A stretch of DNA of 64,000 nucleotides, taken from positions 62,001 through 126,000 of the forward strand of contig NZ_JABCQI010000001.1 of assembly GCF_015244745.1 (NCBI RefSeq), in the 5' to 3' direction. The position numbers and the translations under genes were made by a program. This DNA comes from Gluconobacter cadivus. GTDB taxonomy: Bacteria; Pseudomonadota; Alphaproteobacteria; Acetobacterales; Acetobacteraceae. A model generated the notes under the pieces. That model did no database searches and was not told where the DNA came from. It saw nothing but the letters and a program-made list of their open reading frames with translations. Positions 15,941 to 27,323 of this stretch are shown here, piece after piece. Position 1 is the stretch's first letter; each line of letters starts with the position of its first letter.

Positions 15941-17242
15941 ATGACGACGCCCGGACACAACCAGACCAAAATCCGCGTCGGAATTGACTTCGGCACCACC
16001 AACAGCGTGGTCGTGATTGCGGATGAGAATGGCAATACCCACCCTGCCCGCTTTGTCTTCACGGATCACGCCACCAGCGAAACCTGCCGCACGCTGCTCT
16101 GCCTGTGGATGGATCAGGACGGACGCCGCCGTATCATGAAAGACGCGATCGGGCTGGACGCCATCGAGGCTTATCTGGACGACCCGGCCGAGAGCCGTCT
16201 GATCATGTCCATGAAGACCTATCTCGCGCAGGGGTCTTTTCGTGAGACGCGGGTTTTCAGCAATGTCATGACGCTCGAAGCCCTGATCGCACGCTTTCTG
16301 ACGTCTCTCATGGACAAGGCCGGACTGAACCCGTCTGATGTGAGCGCCACGATCGGTCGCCCCGTGCGATTTGCGGGTGAGCTGGCCGATGATTCGCTCG
16401 GTGTGGACCGTCTGCGGGAAAGTTTTCTGGAAGCGGGTTTTCCCGAACCCAATATTGTTCTTGAACCCGAAGGCGCGGGCTGGCGCTTCATGCAGCGCCT
16501 CGACCGTCCAGCAACTGTTCTGGTCGGCGATTTTGGCGGCGGCACCAGCGATTTCTCGATCATGCGCTTTGATCCGCAGGCGACCCAGCGGGTTACGACA
16601 CTGGGCCATTCGGGTGTGGGCATCGCGGGCGACCAGTTCGACTACCGTATCATCAGCCATGCCGTAGCCCCGGCGCTGGGCCGGGACGCAACCTATCGCG
16701 TCATGGGTGGACAACCCCTGCCCGTCCCGGCGGAATGGTTCGCAAGCCTCGGCCGCTGGCATCGGCTGTCGCTGATGCGGACTCCCCAGACGCTGCGGGA
16801 CATTGCGGACGTCGCCAAAACATCGTCAGAGCCGGAGAAGCTCCGCAGCCTGTTGCGTCTGATCGAAGATCAGGAAGGCCAGAATCTTTATCGTGCGGTT
16901 GGACAGGCCAAGAGCGATCTGTCGCGTCAGGACAGCACTGTTCTGCGCTTCATCCATCGGGATCTGAAAATCGAAGAAACCATCACCCGCGCGGATTTTG
17001 AAAGCTGGATTGCCCCTGATCTGAGCCGTCTGGACGACGCGATCGAAGACGCCATGCGTCAGACTGGTCTGGGGCCGAGTGATATTGACCGGGTCTTCCT
17101 GACAGGGGGCACATCTTTCGTCCCCGCAGTCCGCAACCTGTTCGACCGGCGTTTCGGCGCGGAACGCGTGGATGGAGGGTCAGAGTTTGTGTCAGTTGCC
17201 GAAGGGTTGGCCTTGATTGAACGTGAGCGCCATCTGGCCTGA
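15941..17242 (+). CDS. Short Hsp70-family protein (YegD-like)
   Basis: A 433-residue actin/Hsp70 ATPase-fold protein. The phosphate-1 loop is DFGTTNSVV near 15-23, the phosphate-2 region is GDFGGGTSDFS near 193-203, and the adenosine motif is FLTGGTSFVPAVR near the C terminus. It stops right after the nucleotide-binding domain, so there is no substrate-binding domain of the DnaK kind. This is the known architecture of YegD-type proteins, whose clients are unknown. It is transcribed alone between the bioB terminator and an AT-rich gap. Confidence 0.88.
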   Translation: MTTPGHNQTKIRVGIDFGTTNSVVVIADENGNTHPARFVFTDHATSETCRTLLCLWMDQDGRRRIMKDAIGLDAIEAYLDDPAESRLIMSMKTYLAQGSFRETRVFSNVMTLEALIARFLTSLMDKAGLNPSDVSATIGRPVRFAGELADDSLGVDRLRESFLEAGFPEPNIVLEPEGAGWRFMQRLDRPATVLVGDFGGGTSDFSIMRFDPQATQRVTTLGHSGVGIAGDQFDYRIISHAVAPALGRDATYRVMGGQPLPVPAEWFASLGRWHRLSLMRTPQTLRDIADVAKTSSEPEKLRSLLRLIEDQEGQNLYRAVGQAKSDLSRQDSTVLRFIHRDLKIEETITRADFESWIAPDLSRLDDAIEDAMRQTGLGPSDIDRVFLTGGTSFVPAVRNLFDRRFGAERVDGGSEFVSVAEGLALIERERHLA

Positions 17243-17501: not shown

Positions 17502-19052
17502 ATGTCTCGCCCGCGTTTTTTGAAAATATTCCTGCAGATCAACATTTTTTCAGTATTCAGCATCCTTCCCCTGACTGTTCATGCGCAAGGTACGGAGCCA
17601 GGTCTTCAAGAGCGCGCGCGCCAGCCAACGGCCCGGGTGCTGCCCTCGACCGCACCCGGGATTTCACATCCAGCCAGCGCGGCGCAGCATAAGCATCCCC
17701 CCGCCCCTTCGGCAGACCATCTGGGCGCGATTTTTGATACGGAGAGCATTTCCTCGCTCCTGAACCGCAACAATGACGCCCTGCGCCGCAGCGATCTGAC
17801 AGCCGGTTATTATGTGCCAGCCGAAGCCTTCGGCCATCTCGTGCCCCAGCTTTCGCCTTATCGAAACTGGTTGTCGGAACGCGGCTTCAGCTTTGAGTTC
17901 TCCTACAAGGGAGAAGCCATGGCGAATGTTGGCGGCGGCATCAGCAAGGGAATGTCCTACGCCCACGAACTGACGTTCAACACGCGCTGGGATCTCGGAC
18001 GACTGCTCGGGCTGGATGGCTGGATTCTGCACGCCGTGATGATGGAACGCGCGGGTCGTCAGATCTCTTACGACCATGTCGGGGAGCATCGCATCCTGCT
18101 GAGCGAGGTCTACAGCCTTTCGGGCCATGCAGCCGCGCATCTGGCGGATATCTATGTTGAGAAGTCGTTCTTCAACAATCGCGTCAACATCAATATCGGT
18201 CGCATCACGCTGACGCATACCTATGCAACGTCGGTGCTGCTCTGCACCTTTATGGTCCAGTGTTCTGCTCCCCCAGCAATCAAGGCTGACGAAGGCTGGA
18301 GCGTCTACCCTAAGGCCACATGGGGCGGCACGCTGCGAATCAAGCCCACCCGCGACCTCACGCTACGCACCGGCGTCTACAAAGTCGGGCCGCTGACGGA
18401 AAATCCGAGCGGCTGGGCCTGGGGCAGTGAAACCTCCACGGGAGTCATGCTTCCCATCGAGCTGACCTGGGAGCCCTTTATCGGTAAAGACAATCTGCCG
18501 GGTCATTACAAACTCGGCTTCGGCCACGATACCTCCCCTTATGCTGATCGTCTGGGAACGATCCCGGCAATGTTCGCGCATGACGTTTTCCATGATGCCA
18601 ACAAACCGCGGGATACGTTCTATATCGAGGCCGACCAGATGGTTTACCGCAAGGGTGGCCAGCACCAGATGGCGGGCGGATACATTCTTGCGGGCTATGT
18701 CCACAATACGCCTAGTGTTTCGACATTTTCCGATCAGGTCTATGTCGGCGCATCGCTTCTGGGCATCATTCCGCGCAGACCGTTCGACCGTTTTGGCGTG
18801 ATGTATTCTTACTACCAGATGAGTCCCGCCATTACGCTCGGGCAGCGTCTGAGACAGCTTGCAGGCATGTCCATGGGGGCTTTCGTCAACGGCCCACAAA
18901 CCCATTCCGCCATTCTGGAAGCGTATTACGGTATTCCCATCCACCCCGGCCTCGTGGTGCAGCCTGAGTTCGAATACATGATGCGCCCCGGCGAGACGTC
19001 CATCATTCCGAATGCAACGCTGATCGGTCTCAAGGTTCTTGGAAACCTTTAA
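17502..19052 (+). CDS. OprB-family carbohydrate-selective porin
   Basis: A 516-residue outer-membrane protein. An N-terminal signal peptide ends near VHAQG. A Pro/Ala/His-rich linker of about 60 residues follows, then the OprB barrel begins: WLSERGFSFEFSYKGEAMANVGGG near 127-150, NTRWDLGRLLGLDGW, and late ALIVQPEFEYM-like text (here GLVVQPEFEYMMRPG). OprB porins admit sugars and polyols, which fits a sugar-oxidising acetic acid bacterium. The long linker before the barrel is a little unusual. Flanking DNA on both sides is AT-rich. Confidence 0.9.
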   Translation: MSRPRFLKIFLQINIFSVFSILPLTVHAQGTEPGLQERARQPTARVLPSTAPGISHPASAAQHKHPPAPSADHLGAIFDTESISSLLNRNNDALRRSDLTAGYYVPAEAFGHLVPQLSPYRNWLSERGFSFEFSYKGEAMANVGGGISKGMSYAHELTFNTRWDLGRLLGLDGWILHAVMMERAGRQISYDHVGEHRILLSEVYSLSGHAAAHLADIYVEKSFFNNRVNINIGRITLTHTYATSVLLCTFMVQCSAPPAIKADEGWSVYPKATWGGTLRIKPTRDLTLRTGVYKVGPLTENPSGWAWGSETSTGVMLPIELTWEPFIGKDNLPGHYKLGFGHDTSPYADRLGTIPAMFAHDVFHDANKPRDTFYIEADQMVYRKGGQHQMAGGYILAGYVHNTPSVSTFSDQVYVGASLLGIIPRRPFDRFGVMYSYYQMSPAITLGQRLRQLAGMSMGAFVNGPQTHSAILEAYYGIPIHPGLVVQPEFEYMMRPGETSIIPNATLIGLKVLGNL

Positions 19053-19200: not shown

Positions 19201-19491
19201 ATGAAAACGATGTTCGCTTCTTTTCTGGTTCTTGGACTTCTGGGCGGAACCGCACTCGCACAGGATCCGAAAGTCGAAAACGCGGTGGCCAGCGCTTCTT
19301 CAGACGCGAAGGTCCCTGTCACGCAGGTCGCGGACACAAAGAACAGCGAGACCTGCACTCAGGTCTGGGTCAACACAGTGACCCATGTCTATCATGTACC
19401 GGGCAGCTTCTGGTACGGCGCGACGGCGCATGGAACCTATATGTGCGAAGACGACGCCAAGCGGGCGGGGAATACACGCGGCCAGTTCTGA
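19201..19491 (+). CDS. Small exported protein of unknown function
   Basis: A 96-residue protein with a clear signal peptide (MKTMFASFLVLGLLGGTALA). After a 40-residue polar stretch comes a compact C-terminal module: a Cys, then VYHVPGSFWYG, TAHGTYMCEDDAKRAGNTRG. This H-x-PGS-x-YG-x(3)-G-x-YM-x-E-x-DA pattern recurs in small proteobacterial exported proteins that I know only as hypothetical. Two Cys (SETC and YMC) could pair. AAGGA lies 8 bases before the ATG. The upstream 148 bases are AT-rich. Function not assigned. Confidence 0.78.
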   Translation: MKTMFASFLVLGLLGGTALAQDPKVENAVASASSDAKVPVTQVADTKNSETCTQVWVNTVTHVYHVPGSFWYGATAHGTYMCEDDAKRAGNTRGQF

Positions 19492-19496
19492 GCCTG

Positions 19497-20303
19497 TCAG
19501 GGGGTTTTTGCAGCCCCCGCTTGTTTTGCTTCCACCTCCCGGCTGGCACTTTCCTGTTGCCGCAGGGCTTCCGCCTGACGTGGATGTCCCGCGGCCTCCG
19601 CAGCATCCGCTGCCAGAGTGAGCGCCTGACGCATTCCGCGATAATCCAGAGCATCACGGCGGTTTTTCACGACTGAAAGCGCCTCCTTGGAAGCGAGTTC
19701 GGACTGCCCCTGTAACAGATACAGACGGGCCAGAAGTTCCTGCCGGTCAGTCGCAGCCCCATTGTCATGGAAGGTCGCCAGATCGTTAACACGCTGCGTC
19801 AGAGCAGCAGACTGCTTCTGATCTGCGGCAATCAGGCCAGACAGATAGAGCGCTCTCTCGCGGATGCCGATATCGGGGGATTGCAGCGCGCGCTGTACGG
19901 CCTGCGACGCGAACACCGTATCATGCAGCCTGTACAGGGCAGCCGCGCGGATCACCGCCAGATCAGACGTGTCGGAGACATTGCGCAGGCTCAGCGCGGT
20001 CTCGGTTTCGCCGAGACTCTGAAGAGCCTTCTGAGGCTTGTCCTGCGCCAGAAGCACCGTCGCAAGATTGAACCCGGCTTCATGAATGGCGACTGCATCG
20101 TCCCGCATCAGCGCCCGATCCATGGCCGTTCGATACTGCGCCTCAGCCTGAGACGCCTGACCGATCCCATAAACGGCTTTGCCCGTATCCATGGCATCTT
20201 CATAGGACTGATCGGGCTTGGGTCCCTTCGTTGCAGTTGAAGACGAACAGCCGCCCAACGTCAGAACGACCAAAGCCGTGCAGACCAGAAAACCGTCCCT
20301 CAT
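19497..20303 (-). CDS. TPR-like lipoprotein, last gene of the MCE operon
   Basis: A 268-residue lipoprotein. The signal peptide ends in the lipobox LGGC, followed by SSS. The rest is Ala/Leu/Gln-rich helix pairs that read as degenerate TPR repeats (for example SQAEAQYRTAMDRALM and KPQKALQSLGETETAL). The ATG overlaps the mlaD-like stop by four bases. MCE operons often end with a periplasmic carrier (MlaC) or a PqiC-type auxiliary lipoprotein. Neither is recognisable here, so this protein may be a structural substitute. That is inference from position. Confidence 0.75.
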   Translation of the reverse strand: MRDGFLVCTALVVLTLGGCSSSTATKGPKPDQSYEDAMDTGKAVYGIGQASQAEAQYRTAMDRALMRDDAVAIHEAGFNLATVLLAQDKPQKALQSLGETETALSLRNVSDTSDLAVIRAAALYRLHDTVFASQAVQRALQSPDIGIRERALYLSGLIAADQKQSAALTQRVNDLATFHDNGAATDRQELLARLYLLQGQSELASKEALSVVKNRRDALDYRGMRQALTLAADAAEAAGHPRQAEALRQQESASREVEAKQAGAAKTP

Positions 20304-21256
20304 GGCCGCACCGCCTCAGCCGGAAGACGACGGGAAGGCTCCTGTTTTGCACCTCCGCCTCCCAGCAGCCACAACCCCCGGAGCTGATCGGTCAGCTTCC
20401 GTAGACTGCTCGCACTTGCTTCGGCCTGCGCAAGCAGGGCCGGAAGCTGAGCCGTAGCGGTGTTGGCATGGCTGATGGTCTGCTGGATCTGGGGTATGCT
20501 CTGACGCAGACCCGCAGTCGCGGCCCGCGCGTTGTCCATCGTTCCGTCAGCCTTGGTCATAATCCCCCCGACCTGTTTTTCAATGGGCCGTAGATCCGCA
20601 ATGACGGCATCAAGATGCGCCAGAGCCGCGTTGGCCTTGTCCAGAACATCATCCTTCACCAGTAGGCCGCCGATCGTACCCTGTCCCTTGCGCATATCGG
20701 TCATCATGTCATTCACCTGCGCCGTGATGAGCTGGACGTTGTTCATGGCCGGTACCAGCTTGCTGCGTAGATCCATGACGGTCTGGGTAATCACATCCGC
20801 CGGGTTGGCCTCCACCGTGGCCTGAAGGACCGCATAGTCCCAGTCCAGCGGCTTGCCCTTGCCGCGCCCGAGTTCGATATAGCTCGCCCCGGCCACGATC
20901 AGGCGATGGCGGATGACGGCCGTGCTGTCCTGACGGATGAAGTTTGCAAATTGCGGGTCCAGATCCCCTTCGGCATACATCCGTCCCGTCTCGTTGAGTT
21001 TGAGGCGGCGGATTTCACCGGCATGGACGCCCATGACTTCGATATCGTTGCCGATCGCAAGCCCCGCCACGCCGCTTTCGGGCAGAATGAAATGCAGCTT
21101 CTTTTCCGGGGTCAGCCACTGACGCAGGAATCCGGCCTCCACGACCGCAACCGCGAACATGACGATCGCGGCAAGGACAAGCAGTCCGACCCATTCATCC
21201 GCATAGCGGTTCTGAAAGAGCGGACGGGCGGTCTCGGTCTGGCGCAGGCGGAACAT
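20300..21256 (-). CDS. MCE-domain (MlaD-like) lipid-transport protein
   Basis: A 318-residue protein anchored by one membrane helix at about 25-45 (VGLLVLAAIVMFAVAVV). The MCE domain follows at about 52-135, with SGVAGLAIGNDIEVMGVHAGEI and RHRLIVAGASYIELGRG. The last 170 residues are a long helical region with Ala/Gln heptads, like the tunnel-forming helices of other MCE proteins, ending in a Pro/Arg-rich tail. MCE proteins form hexamers that ferry phospholipids across the periplasm. Start and upstream stop overlap as TGATG. Confidence 0.92.
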   Translation of the reverse strand: MFRLRQTETARPLFQNRYADEWVGLLVLAAIVMFAVAVVEAGFLRQWLTPEKKLHFILPESGVAGLAIGNDIEVMGVHAGEIRRLKLNETGRMYAEGDLDPQFANFIRQDSTAVIRHRLIVAGASYIELGRGKGKPLDWDYAVLQATVEANPADVITQTVMDLRSKLVPAMNNVQLITAQVNDMMTDMRKGQGTIGGLLVKDDVLDKANAALAHLDAVIADLRPIEKQVGGIMTKADGTMDNARAATAGLRQSIPQIQQTISHANTATAQLPALLAQAEASASSLRKLTDQLRGLWLLGGGGAKQEPSRRLPAEAVRP

Positions 21257-21975
21257 CAGGAACCTCGCATCGAAAACAGTCCATCATCGTACAGTCTCAG
21301 GCGGATCGTGGCATCGGACGCATAATCCCCCCACCCACTTTCATCCGGAGCCATCCACACCACCGCGCAGCCACGGTCCCGCAGATCGGTTACAAGAGAC
21401 AGAAACGCATTCATCAGGCTGGCGGAAGCCCCTTCCATCGGGTGTTCCAGCAGCAGGAGCGCCGGTTCCCCCAGCATGGCCCGCACACAGGCCGCGCGCT
21501 GCCGGTCCATCGCCGACAGGCGTCCCGGCGGAACCACCGGCAGGCCCGGCAGACCCAGCGTGACCGCCAGATGCACGGCCTGTGCCTGAAGTTTTTCAAT
21601 CGGCGTGCGTGTATGATGAAGCTGCGGCCACAGGATATTCATATGCGTCCCATACAGGTCCACCCAGCCTCCTGTAACCACGATCCGTCCGATCCGCCCC
21701 CGCAAGGCGTTGGCGCGCCGCTCGTCCAGATCGGCCCAGTCCATGCCCATGCAACGCACATGGCCGTCATCAAGCGGAATAAGGCCCACGCACATATCGG
21801 CGAACAGTGCCGCCTGCCCCATGTCCCGACACTCGATCAGCGCGCACTCGCCGGGGTTGAGACGCAGATTATAGCGGCTCGACACCAACCCGCTTTCATC
21901 AAACCGCGGACGCGCATCCACCAGTTCGAGCCGGGCTTCCAGCGCATCGGACAGGACGTCGTCGTTTTCAGCCAT
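21256..21975 (-). CDS. Degenerate MlaF-like ABC ATPase
   Basis: A 239-residue protein in the ATPase position of the operon. The overall ABC fold is recognisable: NPGECALIE strand, GLIPLDDGHVRCMGMDW, then a conserved helix after RAMLGEP. The functional residues are gone. Walker A (about 48-57) reads IECRDMGQAA with no GKS/T. The signature (153-157) is LSAMD instead of LSGGQ. Walker B (173-179) is LLLLEHP instead of LLLLDEP. The H-loop His is replaced (WMAPDES). The ATG at 21973-21975 overlaps the permease gene by 8 bases. The frame is intact, so it is not simple decay. It probably binds nucleotide weakly or not at all. Confidence 0.85.
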   Translation of the reverse strand: MAENDDVLSDALEARLELVDARPRFDESGLVSSRYNLRLNPGECALIECRDMGQAALFADMCVGLIPLDDGHVRCMGMDWADLDERRANALRGRIGRIVVTGGWVDLYGTHMNILWPQLHHTRTPIEKLQAQAVHLAVTLGLPGLPVVPPGRLSAMDRQRAACVRAMLGEPALLLLEHPMEGASASLMNAFLSLVTDLRDRGCAVVWMAPDESGWGDYASDATIRLRLYDDGLFSMRGS

Positions 21976-22792
21976 CGAAGCACACGCTGAACACGACATT
22001 GATGACCATGATCGACAGCATTCCGCGCGCAAACCCGCGCGGCAGCATGCTTGCCAGATCGTCTTCGGTCGTCACATCCATGCCGGAGAGGCACGAACAG
22101 ACACCCACCGCGTAGCCGCTGAAAACGAACTTGGCCGGAATCACGAAATAGTCGATCGGCTTTACGCTCCCCGCGACCTGATCCATGAACGCCCAGATCG
22201 GCATCGTGATCGCATCTTCCACACGACAGACTGCATAACCCACGACAAGCGCCGTCAGACTGAAGATGATGCCCAGCGTAAAGCCGCTGATCGTCATGGC
22301 GAGGCTGCGCGGCACCAGAAAGGAAATGAAGGGATCGACCCCCATTCCGGTCATGGCGCGCATCTGCCCACCCGTCGTGAGGGTTCCAAGTTCGGTCAGC
22401 ATCAGCATCCCCGAACGTCCCAGCAGGATCACACCCACCAGAACCGGCGCGATTTCACGCACCAGCACAGTGGACAGGATGGACCCCGTCATCTGTGCCA
22501 TGCCTGCAAAGCCGAGCCAGTAGACAGTCTGCGCCACGATCCCGAACCCTGTCAGCGCGGCGGTCACGAGCGTACTCAGTAGCCCTCCGCCCACAGCCTG
22601 ATGCAGGGATGCCCAGAATTCGATCCGTACCGTCCGCCGCCATGTCGTCAGGCGGGTCGCTTCGCGCATGATGCCCCATCCGGCCCCGATCATCATTAGC
22701 GTAAAACGCATCTGCGTGCGGGAAAAATATCCCAGATGGACCAGCATGGTCCGGACCATCGTAATCCGGTCGAGGTTGCGCAGACCTTTCAT
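21968..22792 (-). CDS. MlaE-family ABC permease
   Basis: A 274-residue inner-membrane permease of the MlaE/YrbE family, which forms the dimeric membrane core of MCE transporters. Seen: an amphipathic N terminus and about five hydrophobic segments. The conserved cytoplasmic coupling region is LTELGTLTTGGQMRAMTGMGVDPFISFLVPR, with the Glu and Thr-Gly-Gly typical of the family. Length is usual. Its ATG overlaps the cyclase-like gene stop by four bases (ATGA). The coupling helix is well kept although its expected ATPase partner is degenerate. Confidence 0.93.
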   Translation of the reverse strand: MKGLRNLDRITMVRTMLVHLGYFSRTQMRFTLMMIGAGWGIMREATRLTTWRRTVRIEFWASLHQAVGGGLLSTLVTAALTGFGIVAQTVYWLGFAGMAQMTGSILSTVLVREIAPVLVGVILLGRSGMLMLTELGTLTTGGQMRAMTGMGVDPFISFLVPRSLAMTISGFTLGIIFSLTALVVGYAVCRVEDAITMPIWAFMDQVAGSVKPIDYFVIPAKFVFSGYAVGVCSCLSGMDVTTEDDLASMLPRGFARGMLSIMVINVVFSVCFDG

Positions 22793-25149
22793 CGGCGGCC
22801 AGCCAGAATGAAGCTGCGGGTAATGCCGCTATTGGGAAGATAGAACATGCCGCGGGCCCGGAAGAGGAAATGCTCCCGCAGGATCAGATAGGCCTGTTCG
22901 GACACCTGGATCGTCCCTGCATCCGGCGCACTCCCGGTCAGGAGTTCGGCTCCGTTGAGCGCATCGCCCCAGATGTTGAAGACGGAGGGAGCCTCTCCCA
23001 GTTCGGAGGCCATGACAGACCCCACATCCATCCCGATCCGGAACACGGGGTCCAAATCCGCTGCCGCCAGAGACGACAGGCAGGCCTCACGGATCGACAC
23101 CGCCGCATCCGCAAGACGCACGGCGGCTGACGGGTCCGGCGTTTGCGAGCAGCCGCCCACGAGAACGAGCCTGTTGCTTACCACCTGCACGGAGAACAGC
23201 CCGCTGTCGCGGGCGATTTTCTGGATTTCCAGACTAAGCGTGCGGATGACAGTCATAGCGCGCGTGATGCTGTCACGATCCGGCGCATATGGGTCTACGA
23301 AGGAAATAACCATGACCGGAACCTGCGGGTAGAACCCGGCCGCAACCGGCTCTCCCGCTGTGGGCGACGGCTCCAGAAGGAAGCCTTCGCCAAAACGCGT
23401 CTCGTATTTCTCGGCCGGAACCGCAAATCCGGACGTGCCGTCACCCGCCGCATCGAACGGCTTGGCAAAGCGCAGGGCGACGACCGATCCCACGATGGCA
23501 ATGATATGCTCCATCGTTTCGACCTGCCCCGGATCTTCCAGAACAATGGCGCCGACCGTCCGGTGAGCATTGCGGACCGGCTGGAACAGCAGCGTGCTGG
23601 CACCCACGGCCCGCATGATGACGCGCTGGAAGTTCTGCGTCCGCTCGTCCTGCGAGGCATCCGCGATCGAGAGCGTATGTCCTTCGTCCAGAGCCTCGAA
23701 CAGCTTGCCGTTTTCACGACGGCTGATCTCAACGCCCGTACTGTGAACATCGCGCGACGGATCGAACGCATCTTCACATAATAGGCGGTCGCCATCCGGC
23801 AACAGTCGCCACAGGCTGGCGCGACGTGCGCTGGTCCGCGCGGTCAGGGCTTCAGTCAGAATAGGCGCTTCATGGGCAGGGTCGAACAGATCCGGCGTGC
23901 TGGCGATCTCCAGCAACGAGGCATTTTCCGCCCTGATCTGCTCCCGTCCGCGCAGGATCCGCTTTCGCAGACGCTCCACATGCCGCCCCTGCGCCACCAG
24001 CGCGAACGCCAGAACGGACGCCAGCATGACGATCAGGAGCGAAAACCCGATATTCTGCCGCCGTGCCGTCTGCGCGAAATCGGCAAAATCGCTTTCAGGC
24101 GCATTCAGCAGCAGAACCCACTGCCGGTGTACGAAGGGCAGTTCGGAGGCAATCGTAACGTAGTTCTTCCCCCGGGCCCGCACCGTCCCTGTCCCGGGCC
24201 CCTCGATGCGATACCGGTTGAGCGCCTGCGTGAAGACAGGCTGCGTCTTGGGATCGAGAAAGACATTTCCCGGATCGAAGGTTTTCGGGTCCTGTCCGGG
24301 AGCCATATTATGACCAGCAATTATCTGGCCGTGCATGTTCACGATTACGGCCTGACCACTGCGTCCGACCTGAAGTTTATTGAGAAACGACGTCAGCTGG
24401 TTCAGCGAAACATTGATCGCAAACACCGATTTATGCCCGTCATGCCCATCATAGGCGAGAGACGCCGTGATGATGAACTGGCGCGTTGACACAAAGGCAT
24501 AAGGATCGGTCCAGTGGAGCTGACGACCCGGGTCGTTCTGATGCTTGATGGCCTTGGCGAACCACGGACGCACCACGACATTATAGCCGTCAGCCGGGTC
24601 CGCCGCTTCTCCCGTAATATTGCCATCACGATCTGTATAAACGTGATGATAGACCTGCTTGCCATCGTCGGTCTGGAAATGGGTTTGCTCGAAACCATCC
24701 TTTCCATGCCGCGTGATCATCCAGAACTGTCCCTGATCGTTCGCGATATAGAAGCTGTCCACCTGAGGCGCGTGGGCCAGAATGGAGCGTCCGTAGAGCA
24801 TGAACGTCGTGGGGGTGGCGTTGGTCAGCGGATCGCGGAACATGTCCCGTGCGATCATGGCGCCGACAGAGGCCGGGGCCAGATAGTCGCTCACTTCCTG
24901 CGTCACATAGCGCTGCTGGCTGCGCAGAAGATCGTTGGACAGCGCAATCGCGCCTCTCCGGGTTGTCTGGTAATTGTGAAGACTGATGCCCGTGATCGCC
25001 GCGATGACCAGCAGAACGCCCACGAACGGCCCCAGAATCTGAAAGATCCGACGACGGTCGCTGGCGGGGCTCTGTGTAGGGTCCACGATCTCTGCGGCTG
25101 ACAACGTCTTTTCTCTCCGGACAGGCACGGGGTCGCGGAACAGGGCCAT
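22789..25149 (-). CDS. Membrane sensor with dCache, GAF and degenerate class III cyclase domain
   Basis: A 786-residue protein starting at the ATG at 25147-25149. The in-frame upstream 196 codons lie antisense to ygfZ and look non-coding. Layout: TM1 about 36-58, a periplasmic double-Cache-like sensor about 60-340, TM2 (SLLIVMLASVLAFALVA) after it, a GAF domain about 410-560, and a class III cyclase domain 611-786. In the cyclase domain Asp619 (FVDPY) matches the first metal ligand. The second is Asn659 (VSNRLVLV where GDAVM is expected). IWGDALN keeps Asp729 and Asn732, but the transition-state Arg is Leu736. The usual adenine-selecting Lys is also not evident. It is the first gene of the MCE operon. 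Confidence 0.85.
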   Translation of the reverse strand: MALFRDPVPVRREKTLSAAEIVDPTQSPASDRRRIFQILGPFVGVLLVIAAITGISLHNYQTTRRGAIALSNDLLRSQQRYVTQEVSDYLAPASVGAMIARDMFRDPLTNATPTTFMLYGRSILAHAPQVDSFYIANDQGQFWMITRHGKDGFEQTHFQTDDGKQVYHHVYTDRDGNITGEAADPADGYNVVVRPWFAKAIKHQNDPGRQLHWTDPYAFVSTRQFIITASLAYDGHDGHKSVFAINVSLNQLTSFLNKLQVGRSGQAVIVNMHGQIIAGHNMAPGQDPKTFDPGNVFLDPKTQPVFTQALNRYRIEGPGTGTVRARGKNYVTIASELPFVHRQWVLLLNAPESDFADFAQTARRQNIGFSLLIVMLASVLAFALVAQGRHVERLRKRILRGREQIRAENASLLEIASTPDLFDPAHEAPILTEALTARTSARRASLWRLLPDGDRLLCEDAFDPSRDVHSTGVEISRRENGKLFEALDEGHTLSIADASQDERTQNFQRVIMRAVGASTLLFQPVRNAHRTVGAIVLEDPGQVETMEHIIAIVGSVVALRFAKPFDAAGDGTSGFAVPAEKYETRFGEGFLLEPSPTAGEPVAAGFYPQVPVMVISFVDPYAPDRDSITRAMTVIRTLSLEIQKIARDSGLFSVQVVSNRLVLVGGCSQTPDPSAAVRLADAAVSIREACLSSLAAADLDPVFRIGMDVGSVMASELGEAPSVFNIWGDALNGAELLTGSAPDAGTIQVSEQAYLILREHFLFRARGMFYLPNSGITRSFILAGRR

Positions 25150-26160: not shown

Positions 26161-26571
26161 GTGACCTATACCCCCCCTTCCCCAGCGATTGTCGATGACA
26201 TCATCGCGCAGGTGAAATTCGATGCGAACGGCCTGATTTCAGCTCTCGCGCAGGCGCCGGACGGCATGGTGCTGATGCTGGCATGGATGAATGCGGATGC
26301 CCTGCGCGAGACGCTTCTGACCGGTCGCGTCTGTTACTGGTCCCGCAGTCGCCAGAAGCTCTGGCGCAAGGGCGAGACTTCGGGCCAGCAACAGAAACTG
26401 ATCGAAGCGCGCCTCGACTGTGACATGGACGCCATTCTCATGATCGTGGATCAGACCGGCGTAGCTTGCCACACCGGACGCCGGAGCTGTTTCTATCATG
26501 GCGTGACGCCGGACGGACTGCGCGATACCGCACAGCCCGAAATCAGCGCCGAAGAACTTTACGGACGCTGA
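26161..26571 (+). CDS. hisI: Phosphoribosyl-AMP cyclohydrolase
   Basis: A 136-residue enzyme for the third step of histidine synthesis. It carries the cyclohydrolase domain only, without a HisE fusion. MLAWMNADALRET, the Mg site DCDMDA and the zinc site CHTGRRSCFY are all present. It starts at a GTG with GAGGAG eight bases upstream, and that ribosome site overlaps the ygfZ stop. The 3' end overlaps the convergent RNase T2 gene by 13 bases. The other his genes are not in this window. Confidence 0.95.
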   Translation: MTYTPPSPAIVDDIIAQVKFDANGLISALAQAPDGMVLMLAWMNADALRETLLTGRVCYWSRSRQKLWRKGETSGQQQKLIEARLDCDMDAILMIVDQTGVACHTGRRSCFYHGVTPDGLRDTAQPEISAEELYGR

Positions 26572-27323
26572 GCAGCCTGACCCGACAGGCTCCAGCCCGG
26601 TACGAGGAACGTAGCCGGGCAGCCATTCTGGTCGTCCGGTGAAGACAGATAGGCGCCCTCATAAGGGAAGCGCGACAGCTTCTTCGGGTCCAGCGTGAAC
26701 CAGAGCTGCGTCAGGACCATCTGTCCGTTATGCGCGGGCTCGCAGCGGACCTGCAGCGCCCGGTCGTCATGCACGTTCATCAGGCGCGAGAACATGACGA
26801 GAAGATCGTCGCGCTTGACCTGAAAACCCTCCTGCTGCGACAGCCACACTCCGAAAGCCGACGCCGCGAACCGGTCCCGCAGTTGCATGGATGTGACGAA
26901 AAAGCTGTCCGCATCATAGCCGAAGCAACGGGCATGCTTGGTGTATTCATGCACATAAAGCGGCTTTTTCAGATGCGGCACGACGCCCCGCAACGCCTCG
27001 ACCGTCGTCGGCAGGAGTTGGGGCGGGGTGTCGTCATGGTCGTAAAGATCGCAACCTTTCGACCACCATTCCTGTACCGGCACGCCCTGCGCCTCCAGAG
27101 CATGCGGTTCCGAGGCCCACAGCCCGTGCAGACCAATCGAGATCCGATGCGTCTGGTCCCATTCGCACCCGCCGCCCGTGGCGCAGAACCCCGGCTGCCA
27201 GGTCAGCGCCAGCGTGTCGTGCCGGAAATCGGTATGGGCGGTGGGCGTAAGCGAAGGCCCGGTTGGCGCCTGAGACACACAGCCTGCCATCAGAAGGAAA
27301 GCAGCAAGAACGGAACGCTTCAC
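26559..27323 (-). CDS. RNase T2-family lipoprotein
   Basis: A 254-residue exported ribonuclease. The signal peptide MKRSVLAAFLLMAGC has a lipobox with Cys15, so it should be a lipoprotein rather than a free periplasmic enzyme. The two catalytic segments are GLHGLWAS (CAS I, His) and HEYTKHARCFGY (CAS II, Glu/His/Lys His, in the usual E-x2-KH-x-xC pattern). Several Cys can form the family disulfides. Its ATG overlaps the fghA stop by four bases, an unexpected partner. T2 enzymes cut single-stranded RNA with little base preference. Confidence 0.9.
   Translation of the reverse strand: MKRSVLAAFLLMAGCVSQAPTGPSLTPTAHTDFRHDTLALTWQPGFCATGGGCEWDQTHRISIGLHGLWASEPHALEAQGVPVQEWWSKGCDLYDHDDTPPQLLPTTVEALRGVVPHLKKPLYVHEYTKHARCFGYDADSFFVTSMQLRDRFAASAFGVWLSQQEGFQVKRDDLLVMFSRLMNVHDDRALQVRCEPAHNGQMVLTQLWFTLDPKKLSRFPYEGAYLSSPDDQNGCPATFLVPGWSLSGQAAQRP

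Follow-up and report, generated by a model that had tools for sequence, protein, structure and literature searches.

The window analysed here, a stretch of 64,000 nucleotides from the genome of Gluconobacter cadivus, contains an operon of five open reading frames that overlap serially on the minus strand (25149 to 19497) and encode, in this order, a membrane sensor, an MlaE-family permease, an ATP-binding cassette (ABC) subunit in the MlaF position, an MlaD/MCE protein and a putative lipoprotein. The sequence evidence points to the ABC subunit being a pseudo-ATPase under purifying selection, in which nucleotide binding has presumably been lost. The unusualness of the system rests most strongly on this subunit, a feature that the preliminary description of this DNA had missed. 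With the motor and the sensor enzyme both devoid of their catalytic residues, the operon suggests an inter-membrane lipid bridge under the control of a sensor and independent of ATP. We tentatively interpret it, at somewhat less than an even chance, as a receptor-coupled envelope complex of the MCE (Mla) type that has given up ATP.

The ABC subunit (239 amino acids; 21256..21975, on the minus strand, as are all features of the operon given below) scores 14.7 bits against the Pfam model ABC_tran, which has a cut-off of 25. It retains the ABC fold, as seen in its AlphaFold2 model (pLDDT 92.2) and in structure matches to LolD, FtsE and MlaF. The preliminary description had called it an MlaF-like ATPase and had placed a cyclase-like sensor before it. 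The fold and the MlaF position of the former stand, and so do the dCache, GAF and cyclase folds of the latter, but the ATPase motifs of the one and the catalytic cyclase of the other (at most three of six residues) do not. Alignment with its relatives and with two MlaF proteins of its own genome shows that four elements are missing from the subunit, namely the Walker A loop, the LSGG signature, the Walker B DE pair and the H-loop histidine. In place of Walker A, or the P-loop, there is an eroded CRDMGQAAL (residues 49-57; 21805..21831) where the paralogues read GGSGSGKSV and GGSGCGKST, and Walker B is altered to ALLLLEHP (residues 172-179; 21439..21462), as against FFDEP in the paralogues from the same genome.

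The loss of the catalytic set extends to the examined relatives of this pseudo-nucleotide-binding domain (pseudo-NBD). Their alignment comprises 169 rows (163 distinct sequences), 49 from genomes and 120 from the protein database, the latter being the best 120 of 253 homologues that were themselves the best of 8000 scored candidates. The Walker A lysine is retained in none of the rows, the Walker B aspartate in two and the first glycine of the signature in three. When the catalytic glutamate of Walker B and the H-loop histidine are added to make five key residues, 97 rows have none of the five, 71 have one and a single row has two, while both MlaF paralogues of the same genome retain all five. 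An [LI]SGG string occurs in one relative, P0111. Walker A is also absent, by eye, from all eight further deep relatives, two of which come from other families of the class. Could an error of alignment be hiding the motifs? This explanation was rejected, as a pattern search finds GxxxxGK[ST] in both canonical controls, the own-genome MlaF paralogues, and in none of the 169 rows.

The pattern of conservation follows the same lines. Of nine measured stretches, the P-loop has the lowest conservation (0.45, as against 0.57 for the whole protein), and the peaks of conservation lie in the segment that precedes the former Q-loop, at an invariant tryptophan and in the helical subdomain. Of 20 sequence pairs, 19 have a finite dS, and in these the ratio of nonsynonymous to synonymous substitution rates (dN/dS) lies between 0.03 and 0.32, with a median of 0.067. 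These ratios are rough because dS exceeds 1 in many pairs; they are similar to the dN/dS of the MlaE and MCE genes. In a maximum-likelihood tree, the branch separating 57 pseudo-subunits from 29 canonical MlaF proteins has support of 100/100; the loss of the catalytic motifs is therefore old and probably happened once.

The sensor, encoded by the first gene of the operon (22789..25149; 786 amino acids), is a receptor-like membrane protein composed of a first transmembrane helix, a dCache domain, a second transmembrane helix that belongs to a long helix (TM2), a GAF domain and a class III pseudocyclase. The periplasmic ligand-binding domain dCache_1 (residues 112-335; 24145..24816), recognized by Pfam (8e-16) and by structure matches, is flanked by hydrophobic helices at residues 35-53 and 367-385; its consensus has an Arg-Pro-Trp core, and the comparison with the dCache amino-acid receptor motif concerns this core alone. 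The GAF domain occupies residues 430-558 (23476..23862; Pfam E 5e-6). The last domain (residues 603-786; 22792..23343; Guanylate_cyc 3.7e-11) has the fold of class III adenylyl and guanylyl cyclases, as its structure match indicates, and lacks their catalytic set. Among 126 aligned rows (116 distinct), zero to three of the six catalytic residues are kept, as against six of six in five active controls; the set of metal, substrate and transition-state residues is incomplete in every row, the second metal aspartate being absent in 121 rows and the transition-state arginine in 119. The domain is thus a pseudocyclase by its residues, which makes an output of cAMP or cGMP unlikely, and a sensor producing either was rejected as a candidate on the loss of the catalytic set in all 126 rows.

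The N-terminal half of the sensor also occurs in dCache adenylate cyclases (L207 to L210 and L166) and, by eye, in dCache histidine kinases (L205 and L206). These adenylate cyclases match the sensor profile over its dCache and transmembrane part (approximately positions 16-373), but their cyclase domains retain all six catalytic residues, and their loci give no match to the MCE, permease or lipoprotein profiles of the operon. Histidine kinases and adenylate cyclases of this kind are a possible source of the receptor module.

The transport genes of the operon combine a recognizable architecture with a changed interface. The permease (21968..22792; 274 amino acids; Pfam MlaE 2.8e-37) has its MlaE domain at residues 60-270, and Pfam matches no STAS domain in it. 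Its coupling helix (residues 138-147; 22352..22381) reads LTTGGQMRAM in place of the MRVTDQIDAL found in the Mla permease of the same genome; an acidic residue of this helix has given way to glycine in 69 of 75 permeases and an aspartate to arginine or lysine in 66. The MlaD/MCE protein (20300..21256; 318 amino acids; Pfam MlaD 1.8e-9) consists of an N-terminal transmembrane helix (residues 23-41), one MCE domain (residues 63-129; 20870-21070) and a long C-terminal region, and resembles the Mycobacterium-type Mce family TIGR00996 over residues 23-281 (3.9e-13) with 49.2 bits, below the cut-off of 140.5. No NCBIfam model reaches its cut-off among the matches listed for the operon proteins (25 of 68 rows for the ABC subunit). 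The last gene (19497..20303; 268 amino acids) encodes a putative TPR lipoprotein with a lipobox cysteine, Cys19, that is invariant in both 37 and 52 aligned sequences. Pfam recognizes no family in the window protein, whereas 17 of the 52 homologues match each of two TPR families, and any Pfam match among the 52 is to TPR. A lipoprotein of the PqiC (PF03886) or MlaA type was considered and rejected, with no match in the window protein or in the 52 aligned members. By analogy with what has been proposed for the Mpc system, the MCE protein and the lipoprotein would have the layout of an MCE bridge between the inner and outer membranes.

The five overlapping genes of the preliminary description were all confirmed on the minus strand. 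Sensor and permease genes overlap by ATGA (22789-22792), permease and ABC subunit genes by 8 bp (21968-21975), ABC subunit and MlaD genes in a TGATG whose base 21256 is common to both, and MlaD and lipoprotein genes again by ATGA (20300-20303). A fixed-ratio complex had been read from this strict coupling. Stop/start overlaps are frequent in compact bacterial operons, and the overlaps alone prove no such complex; better support comes from conserved gene order. We compared 69 loci, one per genome, chosen by their match to the sensor (about 98 genomes besides the window's own have a clear match), and counted a gene as complete when its profile coverage was over 0.8. An MlaE gene or a piece of one follows the sensor on the same strand in 68 of the 69 loci, three of these being broken copies; the MCE protein exceeds the coverage threshold in 65, and 59 loci have the full set of five complete genes. 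Conservation of the sensor beside the MCE genes, which had been put forward as a check, thus holds in most relatives, the loci having been found through the sensor.

Among the ten incomplete loci, a contig end truncates six (L102, L111, L113, L122, L125 and L126), the lipoprotein of L114 runs past the end of the fetched stretch, and L103, L129 and L131 are split or decayed. Are the genes, then, decaying pseudogenes? This was rejected on the 59 complete loci and on a dN/dS like that of MlaE and MCE, and true decay, as in L129 and L131, looks unlike the state of the operon. In L129 (G165:C1:298500-307500) all five genes are fragments and the operon of the genus mate G086 is complete, which makes this locus a natural co-loss of the unit.

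The carriers are acetic acid bacteria, namely Gluconobacter, Acetobacter and their relatives, which have envelopes resistant to acid and ethanol. With a threshold of E 1e-35, the order sample contains the pseudo-NBD in 153 of its 299 genomes and the phylum sample in six of its 398, each of the six belonging to the same class as the window. Beyond the family, the class sample of 385 genomes contains two full-length sensors (G304 and G619), each with the whole operon. On these two counts, from the class sample and from a phylum sample whose share of other classes is not given, a spread far beyond the family was rejected. Databases annotate the relatives under such names as 'ABC transporter ATP-binding protein' or 'adenylate/guanylate cyclase domain-containing protein'.

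How might such a complex operate? An inner-membrane MlaE dimer would rest on two pseudo-NBDs, in which the ABC fold and the side that docks to the permease are preserved but which would no longer bind or hydrolyse ATP in the ordinary manner. From the permease, the MCE protein would span the periplasm toward the TPR lipoprotein, probably located in the outer membrane, and the two would provide a hydrophobic path joining the membranes. The dCache receptor would read a small periplasmic ligand, and the resulting change would be relayed through the long TM2 helix and the GAF domain to the pseudocyclase, which, probably as a dimer, would serve as a protein-protein switch on the side of the pseudo-NBD and MlaE with no second messenger. 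Lipid would then move down its gradient through a conduit opened or closed by the receptor; this mode seems likeliest for an operon that does not encode a working ATPase, and it may also apply to Pqi. The loss of the ATP motifs makes direct gating by a periplasmic signal more plausible. The most specific version of this scheme, which we regard as possible but doubtful, is that a lineage of ABC-type lipid transporters has turned into a ligand-gated, ATP-independent lipid channel between the membranes, in which NBD and cyclase are now mechanical parts and the dCache signal directly opens the conduit of MlaE, MCE protein and lipoprotein.

Several observations weigh against a receptor-coupled complex that has given up ATP, and we set them out here and in the two following paragraphs. 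Both the contact between receptor and permease and the transport of lipid are predictions, and the structure model of the receptor, with a pTM of 0.43, gives little information on the relative placement of its domains. Some catalytic residues also persist. The catalytic glutamate of Walker B is retained in 53 of the 169 pseudo-NBD rows and the H-loop histidine in 15, the Walker B stretch has a conservation of 0.72 as against the protein mean of 0.57, and an aspartate occupies the first metal position of the cyclase domain in 77 of the 126 sensor rows, that of the window included, which weakens the case for a dead cyclase. Taken with the completeness of both folds and with an acidic residue at the aligned position of the Walker B aspartate in 161 of 169 rows (glutamate in 159), the Walker B glutamate and the metal-position aspartate could indicate that the NBD or the cyclase domain still uses nucleotides by unorthodox means. 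The P-loop would hardly be the least conserved stretch in such an enzyme, however, nor would the second metal aspartate and the transition-state arginine be missing from nearly all cyclase rows, and we consider live enzymes of this kind highly improbable.

A second set of points concerns the other MCE systems of the same genomes, which make the operon an additional system and not the only one of the cell. Elsewhere in the window's genome there are ordinary MlaE and MlaF genes together with MlaA and MlaC genes, an Mpc-like operon (L060:2638-6423) with a permease frame of 471 amino acids, intact ATPase motifs, an MCE protein and a PF03886 lipoprotein, and a frame of 562 amino acids with three MCE domains, PqiB/LetB-like by domain count. 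The 471-residue permease gives no Pfam match to STAS, though its length leaves room for the domain. In each of 18 tested genomes that have the operon (G267 its core only), at least one ordinary MlaE is present, so that an ATPase could act in trans. These genomes contain 30 ordinary MlaE loci above the cut-off; 29 were examined, and an intact Walker A accompanies every one of them (28 by the pattern script, L238 by reading); L257, the sole operon locus in this control set, has none. The pseudo-NBD might then be a regulatory or scaffold half, joined or replaced by a canonical MlaF of the Mla or Mpc-like operon that powers the MlaE pair, and mixed pairs of active and degenerate NBDs as well as shared Mce ATPases are known. 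Degenerate half-sites usually retain part of the nucleotide site, though, and since 168 of the 169 rows keep at most one key residue, they could hardly contribute to a composite site. The coupling helix of the operon permease is, moreover, unlike those of the ordinary permeases of the genome, and we judge an ATPase in trans unlikely.

The remaining points concern the receptor. In G267 (L200) and G706 (L201) the permease, pseudo-NBD, MCE protein and lipoprotein are present, and no sensor was found at E 1e-10 beside this core or elsewhere in the genome. Since the transport core of these two genomes does without a detected sensor, the sensor is not an obligatory subunit, although the 68 of 69 loci and the operons of G304 and G619 mark it as a long-standing neighbour of the MCE genes. 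The spacing from the receptor stop to the start of the permease domain exceeds 150 bases in 10 of 68 loci, two of them broken copies, with a maximum of 1042 in L114. Both facts would suit a receptor that shares the transcript and works separately, beside an autonomous ATP-free lipid bridge. Yet the receptor gene heads the operon in the loci compared (which were chosen by it), genomes some 2 Mb in size retain it, and its product lacks the output on which a free-standing cyclase would depend; mere co-regulation is thus distinctly improbable in our view. Alternatively, the assembly may not be a transporter at all: MlaE, MCE protein and pseudo-NBD could detect lipid or the state of the envelope together with the dCache receptor, and the pseudocyclase and GAF domains could signal to a cytoplasmic partner. 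That both enzymes look dead and that the first gene encodes a receptor would agree with such a role, for which ABC modules acting as sensors, for example the Bce-type systems, offer a precedent. On the other hand, the periplasmic parts, an MCE protein with a long C-terminal region and a lipoprotein, resemble a transport path, and the core persists with no receptor in two genomes, so that we find a sensory complex quite unlikely.

To our knowledge, neither the power source of MCE systems nor the direction of their lipid transport is settled. An MlaE-MCE system whose NBD is under selection and yet looks dead in all examined relatives offers a natural test of whether this architecture can carry lipid without ATP, and of what an NBD does besides burning ATP. 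The paired dead cyclase provides a testable case of a receptor that acts on a transporter by contact and not through a second messenger, and the four-gene cores of G267 and G706 are useful for learning what the receptor adds.

The surroundings of the operon in the window are of other kinds. Convergent to its end on the plus strand lie a gene for an OprB-family porin (17502-19052; PF04966, 1.2e-100) and an open reading frame of 96 amino acids (19201-19491) with a possible signal peptide by eye and no Pfam match. A protein of 433 amino acids (15941-17242, plus strand) has a partial Hsp70 match in two stretches (PF00012, 5.2e-21). A ribonuclease T2 family protein (26559-27323, minus strand; PF00445, 5.7e-9) has a lipoprotein-like N-terminus by eye, and its gene is flanked by a PRA-CH (hisI-type) gene and a reading frame that looks esterase-like by eye.

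The preliminary description had suspected that the arrangement is not a described system, and we likewise found no description of it: the full-text literature, in a coverage outside which lie most subscription journals and bioRxiv, yielded neither an MCE system with a dead NBD nor a dCache/pseudocyclase receptor in an MCE operon. The accessible part of a knockout study of Gluconobacter oxydans (PMC8602642) holds nothing relevant to the operon. Which of the known systems does it resemble? With Mla of Escherichia coli (MlaFEDB) it shares an MlaE-family permease, an MCE-domain protein encoded alongside and an ABC-type NBD fold in the MlaF position. It differs from Mla in an NBD that lacks the catalytic motifs (Walker A, signature, Walker B and H-loop), in the altered coupling helix of its permease, in the lack of any MlaB, MlaC or MlaA match among its five genes, and in the addition of a dCache/GAF/pseudocyclase receptor and a TPR-type lipoprotein. 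A precedent is Pqi, which is not known to depend on ATP, and Let is a similar MCE-based envelope bridge with no known ATPase. The operon would resemble both as a bridge of this kind, but their inner-membrane partner is PqiA or LetA, whereas the operon has an MlaE-type ABC permease with a pseudo-NBD. For Pqi, the accessible part of the source names three components, with no ATPase among them (PMC10897342). A comparable layout is that of Mpc in the Hyphomicrobiales (Brucella abortus), for which the part of the report available to us describes a permease, an ABC protein, an MCE protein and a lipoprotein proposed to bridge both membranes, with an MlaF-homologous ATPase, a STAS-extended permease and a PqiC-like lipoprotein (PMC12436622). 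As far as this account goes, the operon shares the four-gene order of permease, ABC, MCE and lipoprotein with Mpc, and differs from it in having a dead NBD, a permease of 274 amino acids, a lipoprotein of the TPR type and a receptor gene in front.

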